NCBI GenBank assembly: GCA_020072785.1
Contig: JAIQGG010000009.1
Coordinates: 1 to 64,000, forward strand
Source: Terriglobia bacterium
Lineage (GTDB): Bacteria; Acidobacteriota; Terriglobia; Acidiferrales; UBA7541
Length of the DNA: 64,000 nt
Direction of reading: 5' to 3'
A program made the position numbers and the translations under genes. Below the pieces are notes generated by a model. That model ran no database searches and was not told where the DNA came from. It saw only the letters and a program-made list of their open reading frames with translations. Of this stretch, positions 22,232 to 49,075 are shown in pieces. Every line of letters starts with the position of its first letter. The first letter of the stretch is position 1.

Positions 22232-22310
22232 CGGACGCGGTAATCTCCTGTGGTGTGCTTACACTCAAGAATAGCAGAACTGGCGGCGGAACATCGGAGG
22301 GCGCAGCAGG

Positions 22311-22568: not shown

Positions 22569-23057
22569 ATGGTGTTCTGCACGAAGTGCGGCGGACAGAT
22601 GGACGAGCGGGCGGCGTTCTGCCCGCAATGCGGCACGGCGCACACGCCGGGGTCCGGGACCCCGCCTGGGAAAGGAAATGCGGCTGCGGGGAGCCCCGCC
22701 GGGGCGCAGGGCGGGCTCTCGGAAAACGCCGCGGCGGCGCTTTCCTACGCGCTGGGCTGGCTCACCGGGATTATTTTTCTGCTGATTGACAAGCGGCCGT
22801 ACGTGCGTTTTCACGCCGCGCAATCGCTGGTGGTGTTCGGCGTGCTGCACGTGTTTCGCAGCATCCTTGCGGTGCTATTCGGGGTGGGGATTTTTGCCGG
22901 GGGGCGGCACCTGCTGGCGCCGGGAGTTCTGGTGCTGCACGTGATCAGCCTGGCCACTCTTCTCCTGTGGATTCTGCTGCTGATCAAGGCGTATCAGGGC
23001 GAGAAGTTCCGGGTGCCAGTGGCGTGCGAGATCGCCGACGGCCTGGTGGGGAAATAG
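22569..23057 (+). CDS. Zinc-ribbon and DUF4870-like membrane protein
   Basis: A 162-residue protein. An N-terminal zinc ribbon (FCTKCGGQMDERAAFCPQCG, residues 3-22) is followed by a Gly-rich linker. A DUF4870-type membrane domain follows (ALSYALGWLTGIIFLLIDKR, then VRFHAAQSLVVFGVLHVF and two further hydrophobic helices). Function unknown; such proteins are common in Acidobacteria and Firmicutes. Confidence 0.82.
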   Translation: MVFCTKCGGQMDERAAFCPQCGTAHTPGSGTPPGKGNAAAGSPAGAQGGLSENAAAALSYALGWLTGIIFLLIDKRPYVRFHAAQSLVVFGVLHVFRSILAVLFGVGIFAGGRHLLAPGVLVLHVISLATLLLWILLLIKAYQGEKFRVPVACEIADGLVGK

Positions 23058-23102
23058 GAGCCTGCGCGCGGGCCAAAGCCCGCAGGGCGCGGAGCCGCTG
23101 CA

Positions 23103-23405
23103 TCACATGCCGCTGCCGCTGTGCGTGGCGCGCTCGATGTTGTCCGCGATGCGCAGAACCTGAAGAATGAATTCGAGGCCCAGGCGCACGCACAGAATCC
23201 AGACGAACAGGCCCGCGATCCCGGCTACGAGCACCAACACAGCCTGCGCCGGCGATTGCTGGTAGGCGGTAACGACCAGAGCGACGACGGTGACGCCTCC
23301 GCCGAGGAGCGCCAGGACGTAGAGGAGCTTGACGAGGCGGCGGAGTAGAGACTGTTCGAAGGAAAAGTCGAACAGGCCCACGAAGAAGTTCTGTCCATCC
23401 GGCAT
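23103..23405 (-). CDS. DUF4282-like membrane protein
   Basis: A 100-residue protein with an N-terminal FFVGLFDFSFEQSLLRRLVK segment, two transmembrane helices (VLALLGGGVTVVALVVTAY and VLVLVAGIAGLFVWILCVR) and the amphipathic LEFILQVLRIADNIERA end typical of DUF4282. It converges with the DUF4870-like gene. Function unknown. Confidence 0.78.
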   Translation of the reverse strand: MPDGQNFFVGLFDFSFEQSLLRRLVKLLYVLALLGGGVTVVALVVTAYQQSPAQAVLVLVAGIAGLFVWILCVRLGLEFILQVLRIADNIERATHSGSGM

Positions 23406-23676
23406 GATGCCTCCTGAGAAGTGGTTTGGCGGCTGGGTGCCTGAAGATAACTAAAGGGTTTTCGGGGGAGAAGTCAAGCGCGCGGGATGCCGGGAGCAAG
23501 GCGTGCCATGCGGCGGGGATACCTGTGGCGCATGGGAGACGGGGCCGTCTTCCGGAGGGACGCCGCGGGCGCTCCGGGTTTCCACTTGACTTTCCTGTTG
23601 CCGCCGTCCAGATTAAATAGCTTTGTTCTCTCCGGTGTGACACTCCGGGGGAGGGAAAGGCCATTTCGCGCTCACT

Positions 23677-24636
23677 ATGACTCGGGTTCGGCTCTGTTTC
23701 CACGACCGTTGCTTCGACGGCATGGCCTCCGCGGCTCTCTTCTACCGCTTCTACCGCGAGCGTTTCGATGCGCAGGCGGAGTTCCAGTTCACGGGCATGA
23801 CACACCGCGCGGCGCAGCCCTGGGAAGAGGGGCTGTTCGACGGCGACGAGAACGTCATCGTGGATTTCAAGTACTCGAATTCGCCGCGGGTGACCTGGTG
23901 GTTCGATCATCACCAGAGCGCCTTCCTGACGCCGGCGGACGCGGAGCATTTCCGGAAGCGCGGCAGCGGGCACCTGTTCTACGACCCCACGTACAAGTCC
24001 TGCACCAAGCTGATCGCCACGGTGGCGCGGGAGAAGTTCGGCTATGACACGGCGCCGCTCGCGGAACTGATTCACTGGGGCGACATTATTGATGGGGCGC
24101 AGTATCCGACGCCGCAGTTTGCCGTGGAGCTGACCGAGCCGGCAACGCAACTGGCGCTGGTCATCGAGGCGGCGCCAGAAAACGGGCTGCCGGCGCGGCT
24201 GATTCCGGAGGCAGCCTACCGGCCGCTGGCGGAGGTGGTGAAACTGCCGCTGGTGGCGCAGCATCTGGGCCCGCTGCTGGAGCGGCACCGCAAATCCATC
24301 GAGGTGCTGCGCGAGCGCATTGATGCGCGCGACGGCGTGATTTTCTTTGACGTGAGCGATCTGGACCTGGAGGGCTACAACAAGTTCATTCCCTACCTGC
24401 TGCATCCGGAATGCACGTATTCGGTGAGCGTGAGCGCGTCAGCGGTGCGCTCCAAGGTGTCGCTGGGGTCGAATCCGTGGATTCCCGGCGGGGTGGACCA
24501 GAATTTGGCGTCGCTGGCGGAGAAATTCGGCGGCGGCGGACACCCCAAGGTGGCGGCGATCTCTTTCGAGCCGGGCGACCTGGCGCGGGCGCGGGAAGTG
24601 GCCGCGGAAATTACCGTCCAGCTACGGCGCAAGTAA
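23677..24636 (+). CDS. DHH-family phosphoesterase
   Basis: A 319-residue DHH/DHHA1-type protein. It has HDRCFDGMASAALFYRF near the start (metal ligands), VIVDFKYSNSPRVTWWFDHH with the DHH triad at about residue 91, a further acidic segment LIHWGDIIDGAQY, and the C-terminal GGGGHPKVAAISFE characteristic of DHHA1 (GGGHxxAA). Relatives degrade oligoribonucleotides or cyclic dinucleotides. It lies 67 bases before tRNA-Lys and is the last backbone gene before the island. Confidence 0.85.
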   Translation: MTRVRLCFHDRCFDGMASAALFYRFYRERFDAQAEFQFTGMTHRAAQPWEEGLFDGDENVIVDFKYSNSPRVTWWFDHHQSAFLTPADAEHFRKRGSGHLFYDPTYKSCTKLIATVAREKFGYDTAPLAELIHWGDIIDGAQYPTPQFAVELTEPATQLALVIEAAPENGLPARLIPEAAYRPLAEVVKLPLVAQHLGPLLERHRKSIEVLRERIDARDGVIFFDVSDLDLEGYNKFIPYLLHPECTYSVSVSASAVRSKVSLGSNPWIPGGVDQNLASLAEKFGGGGHPKVAAISFEPGDLARAREVAAEITVQLRRK

Positions 24637-25391: not shown

Positions 25392-27677
25392 TTGCCACGA
25401 GTCGACTGCAGCGGGCTGGTCGGAATGCGAGGTCAAACGTTGAGTAGTGCTCAACAGAAGCGGCGCGAACAAGAACTATTCCACAGCCAGGCATATTTGG
25501 CCAGTGTCGTCGAATCTGCGACAGACGCCATCATAACGATTGATTCGAGCCAGAACATCGTTTTGTTCAATGCAGCGGCGGAAAAAATGTTCCGCTGTTC
25601 CACCGAGCAGACGCTGGGCAAGCCAATCACGCAGTTCATTCCCCAGAGTTTCCGCAAGCAACATATTGAGTGGGTTCGTGGATTTGGCGAGGGTACGGTC
25701 GCATTGCGCCGGATGGGGCCCCTGGGTGAAGTCGCCGGGTTAAGGGCTGACGACAGCCGGTTTCTGGCCGAAGTTTCGATCTCGAAGTGTGCTGTGAATG
25801 GGGAATTGTTTTTTACCGCCATCCTGCGTGACATAACGGAGCGGAAGCGGGCCGCAGAAGAGCTTCGTGCCGGGGAAGAGCGGTTTCGAAAGTTGTTCAA
25901 GAGCCTGCCCATTCCTACGTATTCCTGGCAGTGGCGGGACGGTGATTTCGTGTTGGTTGATTTCAGCGACGCGGCCGGGGAAGCCACTGCGGGACGGATT
26001 TCGACTGTTTTGGGCGCCACGGCTGGGCAGGTCTTCGCCGGGCATTTGGAAATCGCCGAAGATTTGCGCCGGTGCTATGAAGAGAAACACACCATCCGCA
26101 GAGAATTCGTATACAAGTTTGCGAGGACGGGACGCATCGCGAATATTGACGCGACGTATGTATTCGTACCCCCGGATATCGTTGTCGCCCACACCTTCGA
26201 CATCACGGAACGCAAAGCGACAGAGAACACCCTGATCAAGCTGTCGAACGTCGCGGAGCAGACGGCGGATTCCATCATCATCACGGACCGGGACGGAGTG
26301 ATCGAGTACGTCAACCCCGCGCTTGAAAAGCTCACCGGTTACACCGCTGCAGAGGTTCTGGGGAGAAAGCCGAGCATTCTCAAGTCCGAGAAGATGAACC
26401 CGGCTTTTTTTGCCAAGTTGTGGGACACGATCGTGGCAGGAGAGCCATTCCGTGGCGTATTCCTCAATCAGAAAAAGAACGGCGAACTCTATTATGAGGA
26501 TAAGACAATTTCTCCGTTGAAGAACGAGCAGGGAGAGATTACGCACTTTGTGTCGGTCGGCCGTGACAGGACCGAACAGATGAAAGCTGAAGAAGAGGAG
26601 CACCGTCTCCGGACCGCCCTGGAAAACGCCGCGAGAGAGTGGAAACTCACGTTTGATGCGGTTCATTCGGCCATTTTGATCACTGATGCCGAGGGATTGG
26701 TCCAGCGGCTCAACCAGGCAGCGCGAGAGCTGCTGGGCCTTAGTTACGATGACGCAATTGGGTGCAACCTAGTCCAGTTTTCACCTGCGGAGCTGTGGGG
26801 GGCGGTGAATGCGGTCCTGCTGGAATCCCGAGAGTGGCGCCAGCCCTCTTCCCGGCAAATCCTCGATCCGAAGAGCGGGAAGAGCTGGTATTTGCACGTG
26901 AGCCAGTTCATGGACCCTTCCCTGGACAAAGAGCATATGCTCATCACGCTGCGAGACGTCACCGCCCTGGTGGATCTGCAGGAGTCGGTTCGCAGAAGCG
27001 AAACGATGTCCGCGATGGGGACGCTTGTGGCGGGCGTTGCGCACGAGATACGCAATCCGCTTTTCAGCATTTCTGCCACGCTGGATGCGATTGAGGCGCG
27101 CTTCGGGGTCCGCGCAGAATATGCGGAATACATGAGAAACCTGAGGCATGAACTCAGTCGTCTGAGTGGGCTGATGGAGGAGCTTCTGGACTACGGGAAA
27201 CCGGCAGGGCTGGACATGGCCGATACGACAATCGAAGCGATTGTGAGCAACGCTGTCCAAACCTGCTGGGTCCTGGCCCGGAAGTACGGGGTGGAGATCG
27301 TCTCGCACGTTGGCCCCGATTTGCCCCTGGTCCGGGTCGATGGCCGACGGATAGCCGAGATATTTCGGAACGTGCTCGAGAATGCCATTCAGCATTCCGC
27401 CAAAGACGCGAAGGTGACGATCGATGCCCGGACGGTTCGGGAAGAGCAACAGACGTGGATCGAATGTGTGGTCAAAGACAGCGGGCCGGGTTTTCGTCCG
27501 GAGGACCTGCCGCACCTGTTCGAACCCTTCTTCACGCGGCGGCGCGGCGGAACCGGTATGGGTCTCGCAATCGTTGAGCGCGCCATCGAGCAGCACGGGG
27601 GTAAGATCATTGCGCGCAATCGCCCGGAGGGTGGCGCGGAGATGCTGATTCGTCTGCGGGCACGGCAGTTGGCTTGA
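25392..27677 (+). CDS. Multi-PAS sensor histidine kinase
   Basis: A 761-residue cytoplasmic kinase with no membrane helix. Four PAS-type domains occupy about residues 30-150, 155-275, 280-400 and 410-525; the third contains the conserved SIIITDRDGVIEYVNPALEK. The dimerisation domain has the phosphorylated His in GVAHEIRNPLFSISATLDA (about 551). The ATPase domain has the N box VLENAIQHSAKDAKV and G boxes DSGPGFRPEDL and GGTGMGLAIVERAIEQHGG. A TTG start at 25392 is assumed; ATG 25425 is an alternative. The regulator gene 20 bases downstream is the expected partner. Soluble PAS input suggests an internal redox, gas or light signal. Confidence 0.87.
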   Translation: MPRVDCSGLVGMRGQTLSSAQQKRREQELFHSQAYLASVVESATDAIITIDSSQNIVLFNAAAEKMFRCSTEQTLGKPITQFIPQSFRKQHIEWVRGFGEGTVALRRMGPLGEVAGLRADDSRFLAEVSISKCAVNGELFFTAILRDITERKRAAEELRAGEERFRKLFKSLPIPTYSWQWRDGDFVLVDFSDAAGEATAGRISTVLGATAGQVFAGHLEIAEDLRRCYEEKHTIRREFVYKFARTGRIANIDATYVFVPPDIVVAHTFDITERKATENTLIKLSNVAEQTADSIIITDRDGVIEYVNPALEKLTGYTAAEVLGRKPSILKSEKMNPAFFAKLWDTIVAGEPFRGVFLNQKKNGELYYEDKTISPLKNEQGEITHFVSVGRDRTEQMKAEEEEHRLRTALENAAREWKLTFDAVHSAILITDAEGLVQRLNQAARELLGLSYDDAIGCNLVQFSPAELWGAVNAVLLESREWRQPSSRQILDPKSGKSWYLHVSQFMDPSLDKEHMLITLRDVTALVDLQESVRRSETMSAMGTLVAGVAHEIRNPLFSISATLDAIEARFGVRAEYAEYMRNLRHELSRLSGLMEELLDYGKPAGLDMADTTIEAIVSNAVQTCWVLARKYGVEIVSHVGPDLPLVRVDGRRIAEIFRNVLENAIQHSAKDAKVTIDARTVREEQQTWIECVVKDSGPGFRPEDLPHLFEPFFTRRRGGTGMGLAIVERAIEQHGGKIIARNRPEGGAEMLIRLRARQLA

Positions 27678-27697
27678 TTTCCTGGGAGGTATGAGCG

Positions 27698-29050
27698 TTG
27701 GCCAGAAATCGTATCTTGCTGGTGGATGATGAAGCGGGGATCCGGTTCGGCGTCGGAGAATTCCTGGCGGCCCACGAGCAGGAGGTTCGCCATGCGGAGT
27801 CCTGCGCGGGGGCCGAGGAAGTGCTGCGTTCCTGGAGGGCGGATATCGTCGTTTGCGATTATGCACTGCTCGATGGAAACGCCCTGGAGTTACTGCCGCG
27901 GCTCAAGGCCATCGACCCGTATGTATCCGTGATCGTCTTGACCGGCCACGGGAGTATCGAACTGGCAGTGCGGGCGATTCAGGAGGGAGCGGAACAGTTC
28001 TTGACCAAGCCGGTGGAGTTGCCGGCCTTGCTGGTGGTGCTGGAACGCCTGTGCGAACAGCGCCGGAACCGCCAGCGCCAAATGGCAACACAGTCCAGGG
28101 AGTCCCGAGAAGCAGTGAATCCTTTTGTCGGCAGCGATCCGTTGATCAGGCGTTTGCGGGAAGTCCTCGAGCGGGTAGCCGTATCGGACAGCCCCATCCT
28201 GATTCAGGGGGAGACGGGGACGGGCAAGAGCGTACTAGCGGCATGGATCCATCAACATGGTCCGAGAGGTCAGGAAGCGTTTGTGGACGTGAACTGCGCG
28301 GGATTGACGCACGATCTCCTGGAGACGGAGCTTTTTGGGCACCAGAAGGGTGCATTTACCGGGGCGCTGAGCAACAAGGTAGGCCTGCTGGAGGTGGCGC
28401 ACCGCGGCACCGTGTTTCTGGATGAGATCGGCGATGTGGACGCGGCAGTTCAGCCAAAGTTGCTCAAGGTCGTCGAGGAGAAGCGCTTTCGAAGGCTGGG
28501 CGACGTACGGGACTGCTGCGTGGACGTGCGGCTCATCGCAGCGACGCATCGGGATTTAGCTGCCCGCGTGCGCCAGGGTTTGTTCCGGGATGACCTCTAT
28601 TTTCGTATCAGCACCATACCGATCCGCGTGCCTCCGCTGCGCGAAAGGAGCGGAGATATTCCCGCGCTCGCGCAGCAGATCCTGGATGGCTTTGCCGGCC
28701 GTTATGGGCGGAAGGGAATCACGCTGGACGCGGATGCGGTAGCCGCTCTGCAGTCGTATGAATGGCCTGGAAATATCCGTGAAATGCGAAATGTGCTGGA
28801 ACGCGCGGTTCTCCTGACGGAAGAAAATGTGATAGCTCGGCAAGATCTCCATTTCGAGCGGCCGGAGAAGGAAACCGACGCACTTTTCGATCCCTCCCTC
28901 TCTCTCGATCAGGTGGAGAAGCTGCACATCATTCGAATGCTGAAGCGGGCGAGCGGGAGTGTGGACAAGGCAGCAGAACAATTAGGCATGCCCCGCAGCA
29001 CGCTCTACCACAAGATCAAACAACACGGAATCGTCCTGTCTAAAGTCTAG
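27698..29050 (+). CDS. NtrC-type sigma54-dependent response regulator
   Basis: A 450-residue regulator. The receiver domain (about 1-120) keeps the acidic pair LLVDDEAG and phospho-Asp in [10 protein letters not shown], with T in VLTGHGS and K in LTKPVEL. The AAA+ domain has Walker [12 protein letters not shown], the sigma54-contacting GAFTGA loop, and Walker [14 protein letters not shown] Fis-type helix-turn-helix ends the protein ([20 protein letters not shown]). The TTG start at 27698 lies 8 bases after GGGAGG. It would activate sigma54 promoters in response to the upstream kinase and could also receive phosphate from CheA. Confidence 0.9.
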
Positions 29051-29186: not shown

Positions 29187-29597
29187 ATGGCACATAGGGT
29201 TCTGTTTGTGGACGACCAAGACGTCATCCTTTTCGCCATGCGCGAGTATTTCACTTTGCTCGGCTACGAAGTGGAGTGCACCAACGAATTGGAGCAAGCA
29301 GTCACATTAATCGGGCAACGCACGTATTCGTTGGTCATCGCGGATCTGCGATTGACCGGTTCGCGCGGTGCGGAAGGCTTGGAGATCGTCCGGGCTCTTC
29401 GCGGCAAGTCTCCGTCGGCGCGGGTGATTATGTTGACCGCGTATGGGTCGCCGGAGGTCGAGGCTGAGGCGAAGCGGTGTGGAGTGGACGCCTTTCTTCA
29501 CAAGCCGCAGCCCCTGGCGGATGTAGCGCGGTTGGCTGAACGGCTGCTGAAGGGTTTGCGCGTGTTTCCTGAGGGTTCGACACCAGCGGCGCTCTGA
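29187..29597 (+). CDS. Single-domain response regulator
   Basis: A 136-residue receiver without an output domain. The acidic pair is in LFVDDQDVILF, the phospho-Asp in SLVIADLRLTGSRG, then MLTAYGSPE (Thr) and FLHKPQPL (Lys). It lies 24 bases before cheA and so may be a phosphate acceptor for CheA or a phosphate sink beside the second CheY. Confidence 0.86.
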   Translation: MAHRVLFVDDQDVILFAMREYFTLLGYEVECTNELEQAVTLIGQRTYSLVIADLRLTGSRGAEGLEIVRALRGKSPSARVIMLTAYGSPEVEAEAKRCGVDAFLHKPQPLADVARLAERLLKGLRVFPEGSTPAAL

Positions 29598-29621: not shown

Positions 29622-31769
29622 ATGGCTCGGAAGAACTTTGATGAGATCCTGAAAGAGTTTCTGGACGAGAGCTCGGAAGGACTGCAGCAGCTCGATACGC
29701 TGCTGGTGCGGTTGGAGAACGAGCGCGATTCCGCGCGTGTGGCCGACATCTTCCGTGTCATTCACAGTATCAAGGGCACATCGGGCCTTCTTGGATTGAA
29801 CAATCTGGAGATGCTGGCGCATGCCGGTGAAGACCTGCTCACGGACATTCGCGATGGGAATCTGATCCCCAACAAGGAAATCACGACAGCACTGCTGCAG
29901 ATGGTGGACCGCATCCGGGCGGCGATAGAGATCGTCGCACAGAAGAAGTCGGATGCTGAGTTTAATGCCGGCAGCCTGATTACCCGCCTGGGGTTGCTGA
30001 AACACTCCCAGGCGGATCAGGCGGGTTTGCCTCGGGCAGAGACTGTGAACCAAGCCGGCCCGGAAGCGCAGCAAGAAAGCGCCGCGGCGCCCGCACCCAG
30101 CGGTGTGGGCACGCAGCATCTTCGGGTTGACGTTTCCTTGCTCGACAAGCTGATGAACATGGTTGGTGAGTTGGTGCTCGTTCGCAACCAGATCCTGCAG
30201 CTAGGTCACTCCAATTCGGCGATTACCGCCTCCTCGCAAAAACTGCATCAGATCACCACCGAGCTGCAGGAAGGGATGATGAAGACCCGCATGCAGCCGG
30301 TGAGCAATCTGTGGGACCGGGTTCCACGCCTGGTACGCGATGTCTCGATCATCTGCAACAAGCAGGTCCGGGTGGAATTCGAAGGAGGTGAGACGGAGCT
30401 GGACAAGACGATCCTGGAATCGATCAAGGATCCGCTGACTCACTTGGTCCGCAACGCGATTGATCATGGCATTGAAGCACCGGAGGCGCGCCGGGCGAAA
30501 GGAAAGCCGGAAGAAGGCGCGATTATCCTGCGGGCCTACCATGACGGCGGGCAGGTGTGCATCGAGGTCAGCGACGACGGGCAAGGAATCGATACGGCCC
30601 GCATCGTCGCCGATGCGATCGAAAAAGGCTCCATCAGCGCGGACCAAGCAGCGCGCCTTTCCGAACGCGAGCAGAAAGCGCTGATGTTTCTGCCCGGGAT
30701 CAGCACTTCGATCGATGTCACCAAGGTTTCTGGCCGTGGCGTCGGCATGGACGTGGTTAAGACGAATACCGAGCGTATCGGCGGGACAGTGGACATCCTG
30801 GCCGCCCCGCACGGTGGAACCTGTTTCCGCCTGACGATTCCGCTGACGCTGGCGATCATTCCCGCGCTGGTGGTCGTGAGCCGCGGCGTCCGGTATGCGA
30901 TTCCCCAGGTCAATATTTTGGAACTCGTGCGCCTCGATGCCGATCAGGCAGCCGTTGAAATCGAACAAGCGCGTGGATGCAGCGTATACCGCCTCCGGGG
31001 GCGTTTGATTCCTATCCTCTACCTCCACGAAGTGCTTCGGCTGAAAGACAAGGATGCCAAACAGGAGCAGCCATCCGACGGCGTGAATCTTGTGATTCTA
31101 CAGGCTGGAATGCACTCGTTTGGCCTGGCCGTCGACGACATCAACGATACCGAAGAGATCGTGGTCAAACCGCTGGCCCGGCAACTCAAAGGACTCACCG
31201 TTTGTTCGGGTGCGACCATCATGGGCGATGGAGCGGTGGCCATGATTCTGGATGTAATCGGGCTCGCCCACCGCGCCGGAGTGGAAGTTCAGAACGAGGC
31301 GCAATCCCGAACGGCTTCCGAGGCGGCGCACGAGACGGAAATCGAGAGGCTGGTCATCTTCCGGGTGGGGAAGAACCGGCGGCTGGCAATGCCGCTAAAC
31401 CTGGTCGCCCGGCTGGAAGAATTCCCAAAGGACAAGCTGGAAAACTCCGCTGGGCAGCTCGTCGTGCAGTATCGCGGCGGGGTCATGCCGGTGGTTCCAC
31501 TGGCCAGCGTGCTGAATCTGGAAAGCGACAGCGAAGGCAGCGGTCTGGCCCAGGTGATCGTCTACGAAAAACAGGGGAAGAGCGTAGGGCTGATCGTTGA
31601 CGAGATCGTGGACATCGTCGAGGAGCGCCTCACCGTGCATGAAGCCGACTTCCACAAGAACATCCGGGGACGCGCGGTCATTCAGGGACGGGTGACCGAT
31701 CTACTGGAAATCCCGCACATCTCTGATCTGTGGTCCGGTGCGGCTCAGAGCATGCGAGGGGTGAACTGA
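29622..31769 (+). CDS. cheA: Chemotaxis-type histidine kinase CheA
   Basis: A 715-residue CheA. The P1 Hpt domain (1-108) has the phosphorylated His48 in FRVIHSIKGTSGLLG. No P2 domain is seen; a Pro/Ala-rich linker leads to the P3 dimerisation helices (about 165-230). The P4 ATPase has the N box DPLTHLVRNAIDHGIE and G boxes SDDGQGID and GRGVGMDVVK. Two CheW-like P5 domains follow (about 410-550 and 565-700), one more than in enteric CheA. CheA relays receptor state to CheY and CheB. It overlaps cheW by one base (TGATG). No flagellar genes are nearby. Confidence 0.93.
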   Translation: MARKNFDEILKEFLDESSEGLQQLDTLLVRLENERDSARVADIFRVIHSIKGTSGLLGLNNLEMLAHAGEDLLTDIRDGNLIPNKEITTALLQMVDRIRAAIEIVAQKKSDAEFNAGSLITRLGLLKHSQADQAGLPRAETVNQAGPEAQQESAAAPAPSGVGTQHLRVDVSLLDKLMNMVGELVLVRNQILQLGHSNSAITASSQKLHQITTELQEGMMKTRMQPVSNLWDRVPRLVRDVSIICNKQVRVEFEGGETELDKTILESIKDPLTHLVRNAIDHGIEAPEARRAKGKPEEGAIILRAYHDGGQVCIEVSDDGQGIDTARIVADAIEKGSISADQAARLSEREQKALMFLPGISTSIDVTKVSGRGVGMDVVKTNTERIGGTVDILAAPHGGTCFRLTIPLTLAIIPALVVVSRGVRYAIPQVNILELVRLDADQAAVEIEQARGCSVYRLRGRLIPILYLHEVLRLKDKDAKQEQPSDGVNLVILQAGMHSFGLAVDDINDTEEIVVKPLARQLKGLTVCSGATIMGDGAVAMILDVIGLAHRAGVEVQNEAQSRTASEAAHETEIERLVIFRVGKNRRLAMPLNLVARLEEFPKDKLENSAGQLVVQYRGGVMPVVPLASVLNLESDSEGSGLAQVIVYEKQGKSVGLIVDEIVDIVEERLTVHEADFHKNIRGRAVIQGRVTDLLEIPHISDLWSGAAQSMRGVN

Positions 31770-32248
31770 TGGCCATGCAGCAATTTTGCACGTTTCGGGT
31801 CGGTGGCGAATTGTTTGGGATCGAGGTCGAGCGCGTTCAGGAAGTGATCAATTACCAGGAGATGACGCCGATCCCATTTTCCTCGGCACTGCGCGGCCTG
31901 ATTAATCTTCGCGGCCAGATCATCGTGGCCATCGATCTGCGCACCCGGCTGCAGATGGAGGAACGGCCGGTGGATCAGCCGCCTATGAACGTGGTGTTGC
32001 GCAGCGATGACGGAGCCGTGAGCCTCCTTGTGGATGAGATCTGCGACGTGGTGAATGTGACGGAAAAGACGTTCGAAAGCGTTCCGGTCACGATGCGTTC
32101 GGCCTTCAAAGAAATCATCAGCGGCGTTCACAAGCTGGAAACGGACTTAATGCTGGTGCTCGATGCGCAGCACGCCATCGATGTCGGCGTCAAAATGCCA
32201 GCGGTGGATTCGGTTGCGCATACGGTGAATCAGGGTGAACCGAACTGA
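31769..32248 (+). CDS. cheW: Chemotaxis coupling protein CheW
   Basis: A 159-residue SH3-like coupling protein joining the receptor to CheA. It begins MAMQQFCTFRVGGELFGIEV and has the typical ALRGLINLRGQIIVAIDLR. The start at 31769 overlaps the cheA stop. The 200 bases that follow carry no convincing gene. Confidence 0.93.
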   Translation: MAMQQFCTFRVGGELFGIEVERVQEVINYQEMTPIPFSSALRGLINLRGQIIVAIDLRTRLQMEERPVDQPPMNVVLRSDDGAVSLLVDEICDVVNVTEKTFESVPVTMRSAFKEIISGVHKLETDLMLVLDAQHAIDVGVKMPAVDSVAHTVNQGEPN

Positions 32249-32447
32249 TTCAGAGAAAGAATGACCTCGGTGCAAGAAAAACGTTCGAGGCGGGTGAAGG
32301 TGTCGTGGAGCCACCAGATGTAAATGACGAATGCCCTCTCGCCAAGATGGATTTGAGCGGGGGCGAGCCAGGGGAGTTGGCGGACTGCGGTAAGAAGTGT
32401 TCGGCACAGTAGACGGGTCCTACGTTTAGGTGTTGGGAGGAAATGCT

Positions 32448-32834
32448 TTGTTGCGTCAACGCGCTCTGGTTGTGGATGACTCACAGGCAACCCGGTCGAT
32501 GCTAGCCACGATGCTGGATGATCTCGGGTTCGACGTGGAAGAAGCATGCGACGGGGCCGAAGCGATTGCCGTGCTTCGGAAAGGGATCACGTTTGATGTC
32601 CTCCTGGTGGATTGGAACATGCCCAACGTCGATGGCGTGGAGCTTGTCCATGCGGTGCGCAACGATCCCTTCTACAACAAGCAGGTTCGCCTGGTCATGG
32701 TGACCTCCGTGGACGAGCCGAACCTCATGGAAAAGGCGCTGACCACCGGCGCGAACGAATACCTCATGAAGCCATTCACAAAAGAGATGCTGGCCGACAA
32801 ATTGACATTGATTGGAATCGCAAGGAACAACTGA
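32448..32834 (+). CDS. cheY: CheY-like response regulator
   Basis: A 128-residue single receiver with all key residues: acidic pair LVVDDSQATR, phospho-Asp in LLVDWNMPNVDG, switch Ser/Thr in VMVTSVDEP and Lys in LMKPFTKEM. The WNMP context is typical of CheY. The TTG at 32448 is 7 bases after GGGAGG and is preferred. The stop overlaps cheB (TGATG). In the absence of a flagellum its target is unknown. Confidence 0.88.
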   Translation: MLRQRALVVDDSQATRSMLATMLDDLGFDVEEACDGAEAIAVLRKGITFDVLLVDWNMPNVDGVELVHAVRNDPFYNKQVRLVMVTSVDEPNLMEKALTTGANEYLMKPFTKEMLADKLTLIGIARNN

Positions 32835-33904
32835 TGGCCAATATTCGCATCCTCATCGTGGACGACTCCAGCCCGATCCGGAGTTCGATCTCCTCGTTGC
32901 TGGGAGAGGAGCCCGATCTGCAAGTTGTCGGGATCGCACGCAATGGGCGCATTGGTGTGGAGAAAGTCATGCAGGTCAGAGCGGACATCGTCCTTCTCGA
33001 CATCGAAATGCCCGAAATGGACGGCATGACCGCGCTTAAGATTATTCGTAAGGACCATCCAGATCTTCCAATCATCATGTTCAGCGCGCTGACGAAAAGA
33101 GGCGCTTCGCAAACACTGGAAGCGTTGGCGCTGGGCGCTGATGATTACGTGGCCAAGCCGTCGATGGAAAAAAATCTGGACCAGGCCCTGGAGAATTGCA
33201 AAAGGGAACTGGTTCCGAAGATTCGGGCACTCTGCGGACGGGCCACGCCGGACAAGAGGGCTACCGTGCGCGTGCCGGCGCCGAATCCAGGCAAGGTGTC
33301 GGGCCGGACGGACATAGTTGTGTTGACCGCTTCCACGGGGGGACCGAGCGCGCTTGAGGAACTCCTCCCGAGGTTTCCTGCGAATTGCCCAGTTCCCTTT
33401 GTGATCGTGCAATCCATGTTGCCGCTTTTGATCAAGAGCTTTGTCGAGCGTTTGCAGAGCCAATGCAGGATGAATGTAATGGAAACCGGGGACGCCCGGC
33501 CTCTGATTCCCGGAATCTACATCGCAACGGGCGGGAAGCATACGGTCGTGGAGCGCGTCGCAGATCAGATTCAAATTCGGGCGACGGAAGGCGCGTCAGA
33601 AAACTCCTTCCTTCCGTCGGCGGACGTCCTGTTGCGGTCGGTGACGGGCGTGTATGGCGGCAACTGCACGGTCGGGATATTGACGGGCATGGGGGATAAC
33701 GGCCTGAAAGGTTGCGAACATGTGTACGGCTGTGGCGGGGAGATTCTCGTGCAGGATCAGGAAAGTTCCAAGGTCTGGGGTATGCCAGCGGCAGTCCTGG
33801 AGGCGGGACTCGCGCACGGCGTATTTCCGTTGAATGCATTTTACGAACAGATTCACAGAAGGATTCAGGCGAGTAAATCCATCCCGGTAATGGCGACACC
33901 GTGA
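32834..33904 (+). CDS. CheB-like protein with degenerate methylesterase site
   Basis: A 356-residue protein with an intact receiver domain (LIVDDSSPIRSS, phospho-Asp in VLLDIEMPEMDG) and a CheB methylesterase domain (about 155-350). The nucleophile Ser is kept in TASTGGPSA (about residue 166). The motif that should be QHM, holding the catalytic His, reads QSM (VIVQSMLPLL, about 192). The motif that should be GMGxDG, holding the catalytic Asp, reads GMGDNG (about 286). Two of three catalytic residues are therefore changed. It is likely inactive as an esterase and may act as a phosphate sink or regulator. It lies between cheY and cheR with overlaps on both sides. Confidence 0.88.
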   Translation: MANIRILIVDDSSPIRSSISSLLGEEPDLQVVGIARNGRIGVEKVMQVRADIVLLDIEMPEMDGMTALKIIRKDHPDLPIIMFSALTKRGASQTLEALALGADDYVAKPSMEKNLDQALENCKRELVPKIRALCGRATPDKRATVRVPAPNPGKVSGRTDIVVLTASTGGPSALEELLPRFPANCPVPFVIVQSMLPLLIKSFVERLQSQCRMNVMETGDARPLIPGIYIATGGKHTVVERVADQIQIRATEGASENSFLPSADVLLRSVTGVYGGNCTVGILTGMGDNGLKGCEHVYGCGGEILVQDQESSKVWGMPAAVLEAGLAHGVFPLNAFYEQIHRRIQASKSIPVMATP

Positions 33905-34776
33905 GCGGAACTTTAGGCATGTCGGTCCGGCGAGAGGACTTCGACTACATACGCGCGCTCCTCAAGGGGCACTCGGGCGTATTTCTCGAAGATGGCAAGG
34001 AGTACCTCTTGGAGGTGAGATTGTCTCCTCTGTATGTAGACATGAAAGTGGACTCGATCGCCGAATTGGTGACGGTATTGCGGCGCGATGCAAACGCCGC
34101 GATGCGCGAACGTGTCCTCAATACGCTGCTGACCAACGAGACCTATTTCTTCCGCGACATCCATCCGTTCGAGGTGTTGCGCACCGATGCTCTGCCGAGA
34201 CTATTTGCCGCTCGCACCGGAAAGAAGCAACTCCGCATCTGGTCTGCCGCGTGTTCCACGGGGCAGGAGCCGTACAGCATCGCGATGATCGTTCATGAGC
34301 TCATGCAGGGTTGCCCGGGATATGCCGTCGAAATCATCGCTACCGATATCGCCGAGGAAAACCTGGAGCGTGCGAGGTCGGGCCAGTACACCCAGGCGGA
34401 AGTCAACCGGGGCCTGCCGGCGGCCATGCTGATCAAGCATTTCACGAAAAAGGACGCAATCTGGGAGATCAACGAATCCATCCGGCGCATGGTCACTTTT
34501 CGCAAGCTCAACTTGTTTGAGTCCTGGCATGGCGTCGGCGCAATGGACCTGGTTCTTCTTCGCAACGTCTTGATCTATTTCGACCAGGGCGCAAAGAAAG
34601 AGATCATCCGGCGCATCCGGCGGACCGTGGCGGACGATGGCGCCGTATTCCTCGGTGCGTCAGAGACCGTCTTGGGACTTTCGGATGAGTTCCACATCAT
34701 GCATTCGGGCAAGGCTTCCCTGTATCGTCCCAAAGCCGCCGAGATGGTTGCGGTTCCCGGAGAGGTGAAGCGATGA
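33901..34776 (+). CDS. cheR: Chemotaxis protein methyltransferase CheR
   Basis: A 291-residue SAM-dependent glutamate methyltransferase for receptors. An N-terminal all-alpha domain contains LNTLLTNETYFFRD. The SAM site is IWSAACSTGQEPYSIAM, followed by IIATDIAEENLERARSGQYT and LVLLRNVLIYFD, all diagnostic of CheR. The GTG start overlaps the upstream stop (GTGA); ATG 33919 is an alternative. A working CheR beside a likely dead CheB makes the second CheB at 39524 the probable counter-enzyme. Confidence 0.93.
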   Translation: MSGTLGMSVRREDFDYIRALLKGHSGVFLEDGKEYLLEVRLSPLYVDMKVDSIAELVTVLRRDANAAMRERVLNTLLTNETYFFRDIHPFEVLRTDALPRLFAARTGKKQLRIWSAACSTGQEPYSIAMIVHELMQGCPGYAVEIIATDIAEENLERARSGQYTQAEVNRGLPAAMLIKHFTKKDAIWEINESIRRMVTFRKLNLFESWHGVGAMDLVLLRNVLIYFDQGAKKEIIRRIRRTVADDGAVFLGASETVLGLSDEFHIMHSGKASLYRPKAAEMVAVPGEVKR

Positions 34777-35283: not shown

Positions 35284-35316
35284 AGCCGTTCTGTTCCGGA
35301 GCCGTTGGGAAATCGC

Positions 35317-35718
35317 ATGGGAAACCAGGAGACAGGCGTTCACCGGACCGATTCGCTCTACGCCCAGATGGGTGGAAGAACGCGCATTACCGCCGCGGCA
35401 GAAAGGTTCTACGAGAAAATTATGGCAGACGGCGATCTCAAGACTTTTTTCGCGGGGACCAACACAACGTGGATGAAGATGCGGTTGAGCCGGTATCTGA
35501 CGCAGGTCCTGGGCGGGCCGGCGCAATACAGGGGTCTCTCGATGAAGGCGGCGCATGCCCATCTGCACATCGAGCGGCGCCACTTCCAGCAAGCCGAAAA
35601 ACTCCTTGCGGCGGCCCTGGATGAGGTAGGCGTGCCGCCCAACGTGGTGGCAAGTGTGATGCAGAAGGTTATGGAGCTCGAACCGGATGTTGTCACGGAG
35701 GCACAATGTGCCCGCTGA
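35317..35718 (+). CDS. Truncated haemoglobin, group I type
   Basis: A 133-residue 2/2 globin. The SLYAQMGGRTRITAAAERFY start, LADGD-like turn (MADGDLKTFF), LGGPAQYRGLSM and the proximal His in MKAAHAHLHIERRHF follow the trHb-N pattern. Tyr B10 is kept (RFYEKIM). At the distal E11 position, where trHb-N usually has Gln, alignment by eye gives Leu, so ligand binding may differ from the paired receptor. It is paralogous to the globin domain of the next gene, and the two probably arose by duplication. Likely ligands are O2, NO or CO. Confidence 0.88.
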   Translation: MGNQETGVHRTDSLYAQMGGRTRITAAAERFYEKIMADGDLKTFFAGTNTTWMKMRLSRYLTQVLGGPAQYRGLSMKAAHAHLHIERRHFQQAEKLLAAALDEVGVPPNVVASVMQKVMELEPDVVTEAQCAR

Positions 35719-35899: not shown

Positions 35900-37894
35900 A
35901 TGGGAGTCAAATTGCCGTCCGTTCGCCGCTCCGATTCGCTCTACGCTCAACTGGGCGGAAAGGCGAGTATCGAAGCGGCCGTCGAAAAGTTCTACGAGAA
36001 GGTCCTGGCAGATCGCGAGCTCAAGCCGTTTTTCGCCAAGACCAATATGACCTGGCTCAAGCTGCGCCAGACGCAGTTCATGAGCCAGGCCCTTGGGGGG
36101 CCCGCGGATTACAAGGGCCGCTCGATGAAGTCGGCGCACGCGAAGCTGCTTATTGAGCCGCGGCACTTCGAGCGCGTGGGCACGCACCTTGCGGTGACGC
36201 TCACCGAACTGGGTGTGCCGCCCGAGCTGGTGGATACGGTGATGGAGAAAATCGGCGGTCTTGAGGGGGACATCGTGACTGTGCGCAAGAATGATTCCGG
36301 AGATACAGAGCAGGGCCTGACCATGGCCCAAGTACGTGCGATGCTGGAAAATTCGCCCATCAACATCATGCTGGCGGATTTGGACATGAACATCATTTAT
36401 GTGAATCCAGCGTCCGAAAAGCTGCTGGGAACTCTCGAAAAATTCCTGCCGGTGACTGCAGATAAAGTCGTGGGGTCGAGTATCGACATCTTCCACAAGA
36501 ATGCGGCGTACCAGCGCAAGATTTTGAGCAATCCGAGAAACCTGCCGCACCGGTCGAACATTCAGATCGGCGACCAGACCGCCGATTTGCTGGCCACGGC
36601 GATCTACGACGAGAAGAACAACTACATTGGCCCGATGGTCACGTGGTCATTGATCACCGACCGTTTGAAGACCGAGACGGAAATGTCGCGCGTCATGTCC
36701 ATGATGGAAAACGCGCCCATCAACATCATGTCCGCCGACCTGGATCTGAAGCTCCAGTACCTCAATCCAGCCGCCAAGAACCTGATGAGGAAGATCGAGC
36801 AGTATCTCCCCGTCCGGGCCGATCAAATGATCGGCACGGCCATCGACATCTTCCACAAGAATCCTGAGCAGCAGCGCAAGTTCCTGTCCAATGACCGGAA
36901 CCTGCCCTTCAGCGCTCAGATCGAGATCGGCCCTGAATCGTTCGATCTGAAAGTCAGCGCCATCTACGATCAGAACAAGAAATATCTGGGTCCCATGGTC
37001 ACCTGGGAACAAATCACCGAAAAGCTGGCCGCCGAGCGCACCATCAAAGAGGCCCAGGAGCGCGAGCGGAAGCAGGTGGAAGAGCTGAAAACAACCATGG
37101 CGACGGTGGCGCAGAACGCTTCCGGCCTGGCCACGGCGTCGGAGGAGCTCACCGCTGTCAGCCAGCAGATGAGCACAAACGCGGAAGAGACGGCATCGCA
37201 GGCCAACGTGGTCTCGGCGGCTTCCGAGCAGGTGAACCGCAGCCTCCAGACGGTGGCCACCGGCACGGAGGAGATGAGCTCCAGCATCAAGGAGATCGCC
37301 AAGAACGCGGCGGACGCGGCCAAGGTTGCCAGCGAAGCGGTGAAGGTTGCGCAGTCGACCAACACGACCGTTGCCAAGCTGGGTGAATCGAGCGCCGAAA
37401 TCAGCCAGGTAATCAAGCTCATTACTTCCATCGCGCAGCAGACCAACCTGCTGGCGCTTAACGCCACCATCGAAGCCGCCCGCGCGGGCGAAGCCGGCAA
37501 AGGCTTCGCGGTCGTCGCCAACGAAGTGAAGGAACTGGCGAAGGAAACCGCGAAGGCCACCGAGGACATCAGCCGGAAGATCGAGGCGATCCAGAGCGAT
37601 ACCAAGGGTGCCGTTGAAGCGATCGGTGCGATCGGCGCGATCATCACCCAGGTGAACGACTTCTCCAACACCATTGCGACGGCCGTCGAAGAACAGAACG
37701 CCACGACGACTGAGATGACCCGCAACGTGAACGAAGCGGCTAAGGGCGCAGGCGAGATCGCGAAGAATATCGCCGGCGTGGCCGAAGCCGCCAAGAGCAC
37801 GTCCCGCGGGGCGGGGGATTCACAAAAGGCGGCGCAATCTCTGGCAAGTATGTCTGCCGAGTTGCGCGGTCTCGTGGGCCGGTACAAGTTCTGA
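35900..37894 (+). CDS. Chemoreceptor: truncated haemoglobin + 2 PAS + MCP signalling domain
   Basis: A 664-residue soluble receptor without membrane helices. Residues about 1-130 are a group-I truncated haemoglobin ([20 protein letters not shown]; Tyr B10; Gln at E11 in KLRQTQFM; proximal His in [15 protein letters not shown]). Two near-identical PAS domains follow (about 140-255 and 260-380; [20 protein letters not shown] and [20 protein letters not shown]). The rest is an MCP coiled coil whose hairpin tip contains [20 protein letters not shown] and [19 protein letters not shown]. There is no C-terminal NWETF-like tether. Known globin-coupled receptors such as HemAT use a 3/3 sensor globin, so a 2/2 globin here is unusual. 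It is the only receptor in the island. Confidence 0.93.
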
Positions 37895-37987: not shown

Positions 37988-39520
37988 ATGCAGCGTAAAC
38001 TGAAGCGCGCTGCCGAGCTGGGAGGCCTTGCCCGCACGATGGCAAGCCTCCAGCGCGGCAGCAGCGCTTCGGCCAGACAATCCCAAACGTCGGTCGTGCA
38101 ACGGCTCGCACAGTTGCACGGATTGCCCCAAAAGATCGGGCAAATCCTTTCTCTCGGAGAACTGGGCGGGGAAGAGCGGCTTTTCAGCTCGCTCACGGAA
38201 ACCGCCCCGGCGCTCTCCTCCCGGGAGGCCTTCGAGGAAATCGAAAAAGCGCTCGGGCGCCCACTCGGCGAATGTTTTGCGCATATCGAGGCGCAAGGCG
38301 TGGGCGCTTCGCTTGCACAAGTACACAAAGCGATTTTGCCTGACGGCCGCGCGGTGGCCGTCAAAATCCAATACCCCGGCATAGCCGACGCGCTGGACTT
38401 GGACCTGCGGGCGTTAGGCTGGCTCACGGCCCCCGTGGGCGGCCTGAACCGTGGCTTTGACCTGAGCGGTTATCGTCGCGAGATCGGTTCGATGTTTCGC
38501 GAGGAGCTGAACTACCGGCACGAAGCCGAGATGCTGGGTTCTTTCCGCGAGGTGGCGCGCCGCTCTCCGCGGGTGGAAATTCCCGAAGTGGTCGAGGAGT
38601 TCAGCAATGAACGCGTGCTGACGATGGCTTGGCTCGATGGCGAGCCTTTTGCTTCTACGCACGCTTGGCCCCTGGCAGCGCGAACGGAGGCGGCTTCGGT
38701 TCTTCTCCGCTTCTTTCTAGCGAGCTGCTTTTCCTGGGGACTTCTCCACGCCGATCCGCACGCCGGCAACTATCGCTTCCGATTAATTCAAGGTCGACCG
38801 GTGATCGGCTTGCTCGATTTTGGCTGCGTGAAGGCCCTGGACGCACGGGCCACCGGTGCGCTCTCCGCGCTCATCGAAGACACCGCCACCGGCGTATTCG
38901 ATCCGATCCGCGCGCGTTCTCACTTTGAAGCGATGGGGTTCCAGGCGCTCCTTCTGGCGCCCATGCAGCATCTGCTTCCCGGTCTGAGCGAGATTCTGTT
39001 CGAACCGTTCTCCAGGGAGCAGCCTTTTGATCTGAATGCCTGGCGGCTGGGCGAGCGGGTGGAAGCACATCTCGGCGAATTCCGGTGGAATTTCCGAATG
39101 GCCGGGCCGCCGCAGTTAATTTTCTTCATGCGTGCCTATCAGGGGCTCATCCAGTATCTGAAGGCTCTGGACGCACCGGTGAACTGGCAAGAGGAGTATC
39201 GCCGGCTGGCCGCTCCAGCGTTACTGCCGGAGCCGGGAGCGAAGGCTGCGGCTCAATCTGCATGGCCTGTCCGAGCGAAATCGAGCTCCTTGAAGATTCG
39301 AGTAGCGCAAAGCGGCCGCACGAAGGCCGAAGTCACCTTTCTCGCCACCGTAGCGGAGAACCTGCCCGAGCTGATGCCTCTGGGCCTGGAAGAGAAGCTC
39401 GCAAACCACGGCATTGATGTGGCTCAAATCGCGCAGAAAGCCGTCGCCGGAGGATTTGCGCCCGGTGATCTGTTCCATTTTGAAGAAGGGGCGAAGAGCT
39501 ACCGTGTCTGGCTCGAATAA
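37988..39520 (+). CDS. ABC1/UbiB-family atypical kinase
   Basis: A 510-residue ADCK/UbiB-type kinase-like protein. It has the N-terminal KxGQ motif (LPQKIGQILSLGE, about residue 48), a Gly/Ala nucleotide loop (QGVGASLAQVHKA), the lysine VAVKIQYPG, catalytic HADPHAGN (about 256) and DFG in LLDFGCVK. About 80 C-terminal residues after 425 are outside the usual family and unrecognised. No membrane anchor is seen. UbiB proteins support quinone synthesis, but here the gene lies 3 bases before cheB in a chemosensory island, so a signalling or haem/quinone-linked role is inferred. Confidence 0.87.
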   Translation: MQRKLKRAAELGGLARTMASLQRGSSASARQSQTSVVQRLAQLHGLPQKIGQILSLGELGGEERLFSSLTETAPALSSREAFEEIEKALGRPLGECFAHIEAQGVGASLAQVHKAILPDGRAVAVKIQYPGIADALDLDLRALGWLTAPVGGLNRGFDLSGYRREIGSMFREELNYRHEAEMLGSFREVARRSPRVEIPEVVEEFSNERVLTMAWLDGEPFASTHAWPLAARTEAASVLLRFFLASCFSWGLLHADPHAGNYRFRLIQGRPVIGLLDFGCVKALDARATGALSALIEDTATGVFDPIRARSHFEAMGFQALLLAPMQHLLPGLSEILFEPFSREQPFDLNAWRLGERVEAHLGEFRWNFRMAGPPQLIFFMRAYQGLIQYLKALDAPVNWQEEYRRLAAPALLPEPGAKAAAQSAWPVRAKSSSLKIRVAQSGRTKAEVTFLATVAENLPELMPLGLEEKLANHGIDVAQIAQKAVAGGFAPGDLFHFEEGAKSYRVWLE

Positions 39521-39523
39521 CGC

Positions 39524-40645
39524 ATGCCATCCATTCGCGTTCTCATCGTTGATGATTCCGTCGTCGTCCGCAAGGTAGTTTCTGAAGCCATCTCCAGCGA
39601 TCCCGCGATCCAAGTTGCCGGGACCGCTGCGGACGGCAAGATCGCTCTCGCGAAGATTCCGCTCCTCAACCCCGATATCATCACGCTCGATGTGGAGATG
39701 CCCGGCATAAACGGCATCGAAACGCTGAAAGAGATCCGAAGACTGTATCCGAAGCTCCCCGTCATCATGTTCAGCACGATGACCGAGCGCGGGGCTGCAA
39801 TCACACTCGATGCGCTGTCTCTGGGGGCTTCCGATTATGTGACCAAGCCCAGCAAGAGCGGCGATCCCGATGTGGCCGCGGAACGCGTCCGCACCGAGAT
39901 GGTTCCCAAGATCAAGGCGCTCTGTGCGCAGCGGCCCATCGAGCCGCCGTCTGCTCTGTTGGCGGCTCCCGCCACCGACGTGGCAGTTCCGCAATTGATC
40001 ATTCCTGCCGTGCCCAGGCAGGCTTCGTCGCGCATCGACATCCTCGCCATCGGAGCTTCCACCGGCGGCCCCAATGCGTTGGCCAAGATGTTGCCTCTGT
40101 TTCCCGCGAATTTTCCGATCCCCATCGTCATTGTGCAACACATGCCGCCGCTCTTCACGCGGCTGCTTTCCGACCGGCTCAACGATCAAACGAAGATCAC
40201 CATTCGCGAAGGGGTGCCGGGCAGCATTTTGGAACCCGGGCACGTCTGGATTGCCCCCGGGGATTTTCACATGGCCGTCGAGCGCTTTGGCGCAAATGTG
40301 CGGCTGGCGATGAACCAGAGATCGCACGAGAATTCCTGCCGTCCCTCGGTCGATGTGCTATTCCGTTCGGTGGCAAAAGTCTACGGCAGCAACGTCCTGG
40401 CCCTGGTTCTAACGGGTATGGGGGCGGACGGCGTGCGTGGTTCGCAACACATCCGCGAACAGGGCGGCCTGGTCTACGTTCAGGATGAGGCCAGCTCGGT
40501 GGTTTGGGGCATGCCAGGGCTGGTGGCGCAAGCCGGCCTCGCAGACGACATCATTCCCCTCGACATCATGGCCTATGAGATCGTGCGCCGCGTCAAAAAC
40601 AGCCGCTCGTTACCCGGGCGCAAGGTGGCAGGAATTGCCCAGTAG
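39524..40645 (+). CDS. cheB: Protein-glutamate methylesterase CheB
   Basis: A 373-residue CheB. The receiver domain (LIVDDSVVVRKV, phospho-Asp in ITLDVEMPGING) is joined by an Ala/Pro linker to a complete esterase domain with all three catalytic residues: Ser in GASTGGPNA, His in VQHMPPLFTR and Asp in TGMGADGVRG. It removes methyl groups added by CheR. It resembles the degenerate copy at 32834 and is the functional partner by inference. Confidence 0.93.
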   Translation: MPSIRVLIVDDSVVVRKVVSEAISSDPAIQVAGTAADGKIALAKIPLLNPDIITLDVEMPGINGIETLKEIRRLYPKLPVIMFSTMTERGAAITLDALSLGASDYVTKPSKSGDPDVAAERVRTEMVPKIKALCAQRPIEPPSALLAAPATDVAVPQLIIPAVPRQASSRIDILAIGASTGGPNALAKMLPLFPANFPIPIVIVQHMPPLFTRLLSDRLNDQTKITIREGVPGSILEPGHVWIAPGDFHMAVERFGANVRLAMNQRSHENSCRPSVDVLFRSVAKVYGSNVLALVLTGMGADGVRGSQHIREQGGLVYVQDEASSVVWGMPGLVAQAGLADDIIPLDIMAYEIVRRVKNSRSLPGRKVAGIAQ

Positions 40646-42164: not shown

Positions 42165-42656
42165 TTGCAATCATCCGTTCGGGCACGGACAGGGACCAGT
42201 TTAACCCTTACTTGCGCAATCGTGACCTGCCTTGCGCTTGTCTGGTATTCAAATATCCGCGCTTCCGTCGAAAACAGCCGCTGGGTAGGACAGACGGATG
42301 ATGTCCTCCTGGAAATCAGCGGAACTCTGCCGGCAATTGCGGATGCCGAAAGAACAAGCCACGGGTACATCATCACCGGTGAGGACTCCCGCCTAGAAAG
42401 CTTTCAATCTGCTCTTTCCCACGTAACGGAACATCTAGACAACCTGAAACGGCTGATCTCAGACAACCCGCGCCAACAAGAACGTGTTACTGCGATACAG
42501 CCTCGTATTGTCGGTCGACTCAAGTTGCTTCAAGAAGCCTCGATCTTGAAGCTCTCGGACGGCATGCCAGCATTAACCTGGCCCCGCTGGCTGCGAGAAT
42601 CCGAGGCATCCGCGATCAGGGGCGTACTGCTGCCGATTGAGATTGCCGTTCGCTGA
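42165..42656 (+). pseudogene. CHASE3-domain sensor fragment
   Basis: 163 codons. One N-terminal membrane helix (SLTLTCAIVTCLALVWYS) precedes a CHASE3 sensory domain (VLLEISGTLPAIADAERTSH, GYIITGEDSRLESFQSAL). The protein stops where a second helix and kinase domain should begin, so it looks like the 5' remnant of a sensor kinase. The last 35 residues are unrelated to CHASE3. A TTG start is assumed. Confidence 0.65.
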
Positions 42657-48320: not shown

Positions 48321-48385
48321 AAATCATCAGGAAGGCCAGCTCGTCCGGATAGAGCCGGATATTGCAGCGGATGGTCTCCGGGGAA

Positions 48386-49075
48386 TTAGCGCAGGCGATT
48401 CTTATAGACGGCCATGCCCACGGCAGCGTCCATGCCCATCTTTGCGAGGGCGGCGATTTCACGGCGCGTCTTGATTCCCCCCGCGGCGATGATGGGATGG
48501 GTGGTAACGCCGCGCAGTTTGCGAAACCATTTGAGATTCACTCCGCTCATCGTGCCTTCGCGGTCCACGTCCGTGCAAAGAAATCCGCCACAGAAGGGTT
48601 CGAGTTCCGGCATGAGGCTTTCCGCGCGCAGCGCCAAGCCCTTCCGCCATCCGTGAATCGTGATGTGTCCCTTTTTTGTATCCAGCGCCACAAGGATGCG
48701 CTTGCGATCCACTTTTTTTGCAAGCTGCCGGAAAAAGGGCGCGTTGACCTGGCCACGAGCAAACGCCGAGCTGCCGATGATCACCTGCGCTGCGCCCCAG
48801 CCAATCACTTCCGCGGCTCTGGCAACCGTGCGAATTCCGCCGCCGACCCGCACCTTCATTCCATACTTCTTTTTCGCCTGCGAGCAGAGGTCGTGCACGA
48901 GGCGGTTATTGGCGCCTTTGCCCATTGCGGCATCCAGATCGATGATGTGCAGCCAGGGATAGTTCTGGAATTTACTGAGCAGGCCAAACACATCCGCGAC
49001 GGCCAGCTCGCGCCTTCGTCCCTGCACAAGCTGCACCGCTTGTCCGTTCTGCAGATCGATGCAAGGGATCAGCAT
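48386..49075 (-). CDS. hisA: Phosphoribosylformimino-AICAR-phosphate isomerase HisA
   Basis: A 229-residue (beta/alpha)8 barrel that isomerises ProFAR to PRFAR. The first catalytic Asp is in IPCIDLQNGQAVQLVQG and the second in ILVALDTKKG; phosphate loops are VGGGIRT and AAGGIKT. It overlaps hisF by 7 bases and is the last gene of the operon. It is slightly short for the family. Confidence 0.93.
   Translation of the reverse strand: MLIPCIDLQNGQAVQLVQGRRRELAVADVFGLLSKFQNYPWLHIIDLDAAMGKGANNRLVHDLCSQAKKKYGMKVRVGGGIRTVARAAEVIGWGAAQVIIGSSAFARGQVNAPFFRQLAKKVDRKRILVALDTKKGHITIHGWRKGLALRAESLMPELEPFCGGFLCTDVDREGTMSGVNLKWFRKLRGVTTHPIIAAGGIKTRREIAALAKMGMDAAVGMAVYKNRLR

Follow-up and report, generated by a model that had tools for sequence, protein, structure and literature searches.

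A chemosensory gene cluster with two CheB genes

The window, which is the whole stretch of 64,000 nucleotides that was analysed, carries a chemosensory gene cluster encoding two CheB proteins (Table 1). The first of these, here called pseudo-CheB, is translated from a stop-free reading frame and is divided into two domains recognised by Pfam: an N-terminal receiver (PF00072; E 1e-25, 90.5 bits) and, C-terminal to it, a methylesterase-fold domain (CheB_methylest, PF01339; E 3.7e-47, 160.7 bits), each scoring over the cut-off. This order, PF00072 then PF01339, is the architecture of the CheB family. The second CheB is 45% identical to pseudo-CheB, has the same architecture and lies in the same operon region.

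Table 1. Positions of the cluster genes and of the active-site codons of pseudo-CheB within the window
Feature	Position	Strand	Basis or remark
PAS histidine kinase and NtrC-type regulator, upstream	25392..29050	+	syntenic in three genomes
Stand-alone receiver	29187..29597	+	Pfam
CheA: Hpt, dimerisation, ATPase, two CheW stretches, without receiver	29622..31769	+	Pfam
CheW	31730..32248	+	Pfam
CheY-like receiver	32430..32834	+	stop TGA shares one base with the pseudo-CheB ATG
Pseudo-CheB, 356 aa	32834..33904	+	receiver aa 6-119, linker, methylesterase-fold domain aa 162-339, triad S167-S194-N289
Ser167 codon, nucleophile position, kept	33332..33334	+	aligns to S164 of 1a2o
Ser194 codon, in place of catalytic His190	33413..33415	+	alignment with 1a2o; CheB domain comparison
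Asn289 codon, in place of catalytic Asp286	33698..33700	+	alignment with 1a2o; CheB domain comparison
CheR methyltransferase	33901..34776	+	GTGA 4-base overlap with pseudo-CheB, kept in three genomes
Truncated haemoglobin	35305..35718	+	Pfam
Cytoplasmic chemoreceptor: truncated globin, PAS, PAS, MCP signalling domain	35900..37894	+	Pfam
ABC1/AarF-like kinase-type protein	37988..39520	+	putative, sequence reading; position kept between MCP and intact CheB
Intact CheB, same cluster, 373 aa, S-H-D	39524..40645	+	Pfam; motif reading

Pseudo-CheB occurs in the same gene cluster in three genomes from two genera: the source genome, a second species of the same genus (G009) and a species of another genus in the same family (G078). 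The common order is PAS-kinase, NtrC-type regulator, receiver, CheA, CheW, CheY, pseudo-CheB and CheR, and this is followed by a small membrane protein, a truncated globin (in two of the three), the globin-PAS-PAS-MCP receptor, the ABC1-type kinase and the intact CheB. The H-box (HSIKG) and the ATP-site motifs of CheA are present. Related clusters in the class have one CheB each, with a Ser-His-Asp (S-H-D) triad, and in several of them it adjoins CheR. In each of the three genomes the ABC1/AarF-like gene separates the receptor from the intact cheB, and it is also found near che genes of a fourth genome (L161, 51% identity).

Methylation consensus sites lie at aa 453 and 593-594 of the chemoreceptor. 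As these sites are kept in all three species, CheR and the intact CheB could plausibly act on this receptor. It is the best-kept protein of the cluster, at 89-91% identity across the three species, and the free truncated haemoglobin is encoded just upstream of it. The source genome has three MCPs only and four CheBs. FliG was not found in its 98.9%-complete assembly and PilT is present, which excludes output of the cluster to flagella here, within the limits of that assembly, and makes type IV pili or gene regulation the probable output. G009 is likewise without FliG; G078 has it. G078 also has a second related chemosensory cluster (L160, C121), with an intact CheB that is 41% identical to pseudo-CheB. 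Elsewhere in the window, a short CHASE3 protein of 163 aa that has no recognised output domain is encoded downstream of the cluster (42165-42656), and three long open frames of 451-515 aa (20696-22243, 22984-24405 and 48362-49717) are without a Pfam match at E 1e-5.

Active site and receiver of pseudo-CheB

Alignment with the solved Salmonella CheB (1a2o) places Ser164, His190 and Asp286 of that enzyme on Ser167, Ser194 and Asn289 of pseudo-CheB. The first-pass annotation had read two of three catalytic residues as replaced, and this is confirmed: the site is Ser-Ser-Asn with the nucleophile Ser kept. The motifs are TASTGG, VQSML and GMGDNG, so that VQSM stands for VQHM, as claimed, and VQSML is found in 3/3 species. 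The intact CheB reads GASTGG, VQHMP and GMGADG, and it does keep all three residues. As for the Asp, described earlier as shifted or lost, only loss holds up. The residue beside the former catalytic Asp (Asp288 here) is D, N or V across the three species (DNG, NNG, VDG), and because it varies in this way the Asp is, on the alignment, lost rather than shifted; an Asp one residue over and still usable was rejected as a conserved feature.

The Ser-His-Asp triad that marks an active CheB methylesterase/glutaminase is S-S-N in pseudo-CheB, S-S-N in one orthologue and S-S-D in the other. A comparison of 149 distinct CheB domains, drawn from related genomes and a public genome scan, found S-H-D in 146, and the exceptions are exactly the three pseudo-CheBs. 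From the established chemistry of the catalytic triad, methylesterase action by pseudo-CheB, which is without the catalytic His, is very unlikely.

It could be proposed that the protein is still an esterase or deamidase in which Ser167 acts with other residues. The nucleophile and the oxyanion-side STGG and GMG motifs are kept, G078 keeps the Asp, and Lys313 is a new conserved residue. Against this, the residue at the position of His190 belongs to the catalytic triad in a characterised CheB (6ymz, S165-H191-D287; PMC7698151), and the catalytic His is invariant in 146/146 other CheB domains, which leaves residual catalysis highly improbable. Only slightly less improbable is that the domain now has another activity or ligand, so that it carries out different chemistry or senses receptor methylation where CheB would remove it; this is conceivable because Ser167 has been kept and Lys313 has become fixed in 3/3 species by the former active-site region.

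The fold itself appears to be kept. The predicted model has a mean pLDDT of 92.9 and superposes on 6ymz_B with Z 43.3 (rmsd 1.8, 325 residues) and on 1a2o_A with Z 41.5. Its input was an alignment of 39 CheBs that are otherwise canonical, with the two orthologues left out, and the model therefore shows only that the sequence is compatible with a CheB fold over its whole length and is silent on the state of the active site. A single-sequence prediction gave a pLDDT of 37 and was set aside.

The receiver was said in the first-pass annotation to be intact, and the phosphorylation site is indeed complete: the acid pair D10/D11, D56, S84 and K108 are all there, with E in place of D10 in one orthologue. 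The three pseudo-CheBs keep 24-25 of 26 conserved receiver positions, and the receiver is predicted, with support from these residues, to be phosphorylatable. Cysteines 122, 185, 211, 278 and 294 are common to the three pseudo-CheBs, and four of the five lie in the methylesterase-fold domain, referred to below as the altered domain.

Orthologues and constraint

The G009 orthologue is 74% identical to pseudo-CheB and reads TASTGG/VQSML/GMGNNG; that of G078 is 72% identical and reads SASTGG/VQSML/GMGVDG. Thus, His to Ser is found in 3/3 species and Asp to Asn in 2/3. In a check of orthologue conservation that had been set beforehand, His was restored in 0/2, which supports its loss, and Asp was present in one of the two (G078). 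Sequencing error or a fresh mutation was rejected as an explanation, two orthologues having the same His to Ser change in the same gene cluster. The distribution is patchy, at 3/89 family genomes. A sample of 36 genus, 89 family, 399 class and 396 phylum genomes yielded no further orthologue, nor did the best 80 matches of the public genome scan; no close match turned up on plasmids, where the best was 45%, or on viral contigs.

In the tree the three pseudo-CheBs group together with full support, and the stem that leads to this clade measures about 1.2 changes per column. Tree paths to other CheBs are 2.35 for the altered domain, vs 1.15 among those CheBs, and 1.38 vs 0.84 for the receiver, so most of the divergence is in the altered domain. 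The three proteins keep 33, 31 and 31 of the 45 conserved positions there; among other CheBs the lowest count is 36 and the median 44. Most of the replacements are identical across the three species, and those common to 3/3 are 164 L, 194 S, 196 L, 199 L, 204 V, 221 A, 267 L and 313 K. Within the pseudo-CheBs, as within the intact CheBs, the window copy branches outside G009 and G078, which means that the Asp was lost twice, or was lost once and then regained.

The clade is placed apart from the intact CheB of the same cluster, again on its long stem. A sister grouping of the two had an AU p of 0.219, where the program warns of joined long branches. An origin of pseudo-CheB as a recent tandem duplicate of the intact CheB is not supported by the tree, nor is it rejected by that test. 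In the same tree a Bryobacteraceae record nests among genomes of the same class, from which the host would appear to be an acidobacterium of the Terriglobia.

All three pseudo-CheBs are open and full-length at about 72-77% identity, and the length of 356 aa, the frame and the 4-base GTGA overlap with cheR are the same in 3/3 species. Their dN/dS by NG86 is 0.16-0.24 over the whole protein, about 0.2-0.26 in the altered domain and lower, at 0.09-0.13, in the receiver, these values being rough as dS is near 1 and near saturation. The ratio of dN in the catalytic domain to dN in the receiver is 1.5-2.9 for pseudo-CheB vs 2.0-3.7 for the intact CheB. Because these ratios resemble each other, the altered domain does not seem to be simply drifting and is, by these sequence estimates, under purifying selection.

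The same data bear on whether this is a gene on its way out, whose function was lost with the arrival or retention of a second CheB. Pseudo-CheB as a whole does evolve faster than the intact CheB (catalytic-domain identity among species of 69-71% vs 79-86%), the WGMP motif is also gone in G009 and G078, and the loss of Asp is incomplete across the clade. However, neither a broken frame nor lost constraint, the marks of a pseudogene, was found: the copies are full-length in three species, dN is well below dS, the receiver is conserved and the overlap with cheR is kept. Polar selection on cheR translation could act here, yet it would not hold the amino-acid sequence. Decay is thus improbable and, as three copies are intact, the weakest of the serious readings. 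We conclude that 32834-33904 encodes a pseudo-methylesterase that is conserved and belongs to one globin-PAS-MCP chemosensory system; its loss of activity we infer from the residues replaced.

A proposed role in receptor adaptation

Receptor adaptation is usually presented as a balance of CheR and CheB activities. The reading we favour, tentatively and at a little under an even chance, is that pseudo-CheB competes with the intact CheB under the control of phosphorylation and without catalysis. This would be the simplest role for a protein with a phosphate-accepting receiver and a conserved CheB-fold domain, encoded in one transcript region with CheY and CheR beside an active CheB. Here, pseudo-CheB would hydrolyse no receptor methyl ester at a useful rate, and its receiver would be phosphorylated by CheA as is that of the intact CheB. 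Phosphorylation would expose the methylesterase-fold domain, which would then bind the same receptor and/or CheA. The two CheBs would contest phosphate and receptor sites, demethylation would be slower, and the outcome would be a slower or graded adaptation of an oxygen/redox-sensing receptor.

Competition is supported by the His to Ser orthologues with the same gene order in three genomes, set against 146 other domains that are S-H-D only. In addition, the altered domain keeps its fold, length and frame, the receiver quintet is kept, and the receptor methylation sites, CheR and the intact CheB are all retained in the cluster. The patchy spread counts against it. Also, residues adjoining the active site are replaced (196, 199, 200 and 232, and 317-318 in two species); these may also serve substrate binding, and their replacement would then count against competition, because competition requires that the altered domain bind the receptor.

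The earlier proposal was of a pseudo-esterase that still takes phosphate, acting as a sink or competitor. The first part is supported in the sequence by the quintet and the conserved receiver positions; the second we still infer, and its competitor half fits better than a pure sink, the altered domain being still under purifying selection. As a pure sink, the receiver would drain phosphate from CheA to end signalling and the rest of the protein would be a passive remnant. The receiver is the best-kept part of the protein (82-89% identity among species, quintet intact), and a sink could matter for the other receivers encoded in the cluster (29187, 32430). Chemotaxis has established precedents for phosphate sinks in S. 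meliloti CheY1 and R. sphaeroides CheY6 (PMC2924250), and pseudo-CheB may share with them the role of an alternative acceptor of CheA phosphate. But the known examples in that paper are CheYs, of a single domain, while pseudo-CheB keeps a full second domain. A sink needs the receiver only, and the altered domain is full length and stop-free, with a dN/dS of about 0.2-0.26 and a ratio of catalytic-domain to receiver dN like that of the intact CheB. As the former catalytic domain stays constrained, a pure sink is less likely and we regard it as rather doubtful.

Alternatively, phosphorylation may govern whether the altered domain binds a new partner, such as the translationally coupled CheR or another cluster protein, in the manner of an adaptor or output regulator. 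The altered domain changed in a burst on the clade stem and was constrained afterwards, and three species have the same replacements; this is the pattern of a changed role, and the conserved overlap with cheR points the same way. Against this, cheB-cheR adjacency is common for intact CheBs too. Such an adaptor role would be as compatible with the burst as competition is, and overall we think it unlikely.

Known CheBs place these readings in context. The CheBs of Salmonella (1A2O) and Pectobacterium (6YMZ) are like pseudo-CheB in domain order, fold (Z 41-43), receiver phosphorylation site, nucleophile Ser and cheY-cheR position, and differ from it in the triad and at about ten more conserved catalytic-domain positions that are replaced in pseudo-CheB. 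The intact CheB of the cluster is unlike it in that its S-H-D is complete, it evolves more slowly and it groups with CheBs of related clusters. R. sphaeroides CheB2, a proposed phosphorelay intermediate, is likewise a CheB with a suggested phosphate-handling role, but it is an active methylesterase (PMC2924250), whereas pseudo-CheB is without catalytic residues. A search for pseudo, inactive or degenerate CheBs found none in open-access text, which is weak evidence of absence; the family and the fold are known, and on that evidence conserved loss of the triad appears to be undescribed in the literature searched.

A full-length CheB without the catalytic His, beside an active CheB and with one receptor, is a natural case in which phosphate competition, receptor occupancy and catalysis could be told apart. 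If pseudo-CheB is a sink, then a CheB rather than a CheY would serve in that capacity. If it is a competitor, a pseudoenzyme brake would join the known controls of adaptation.
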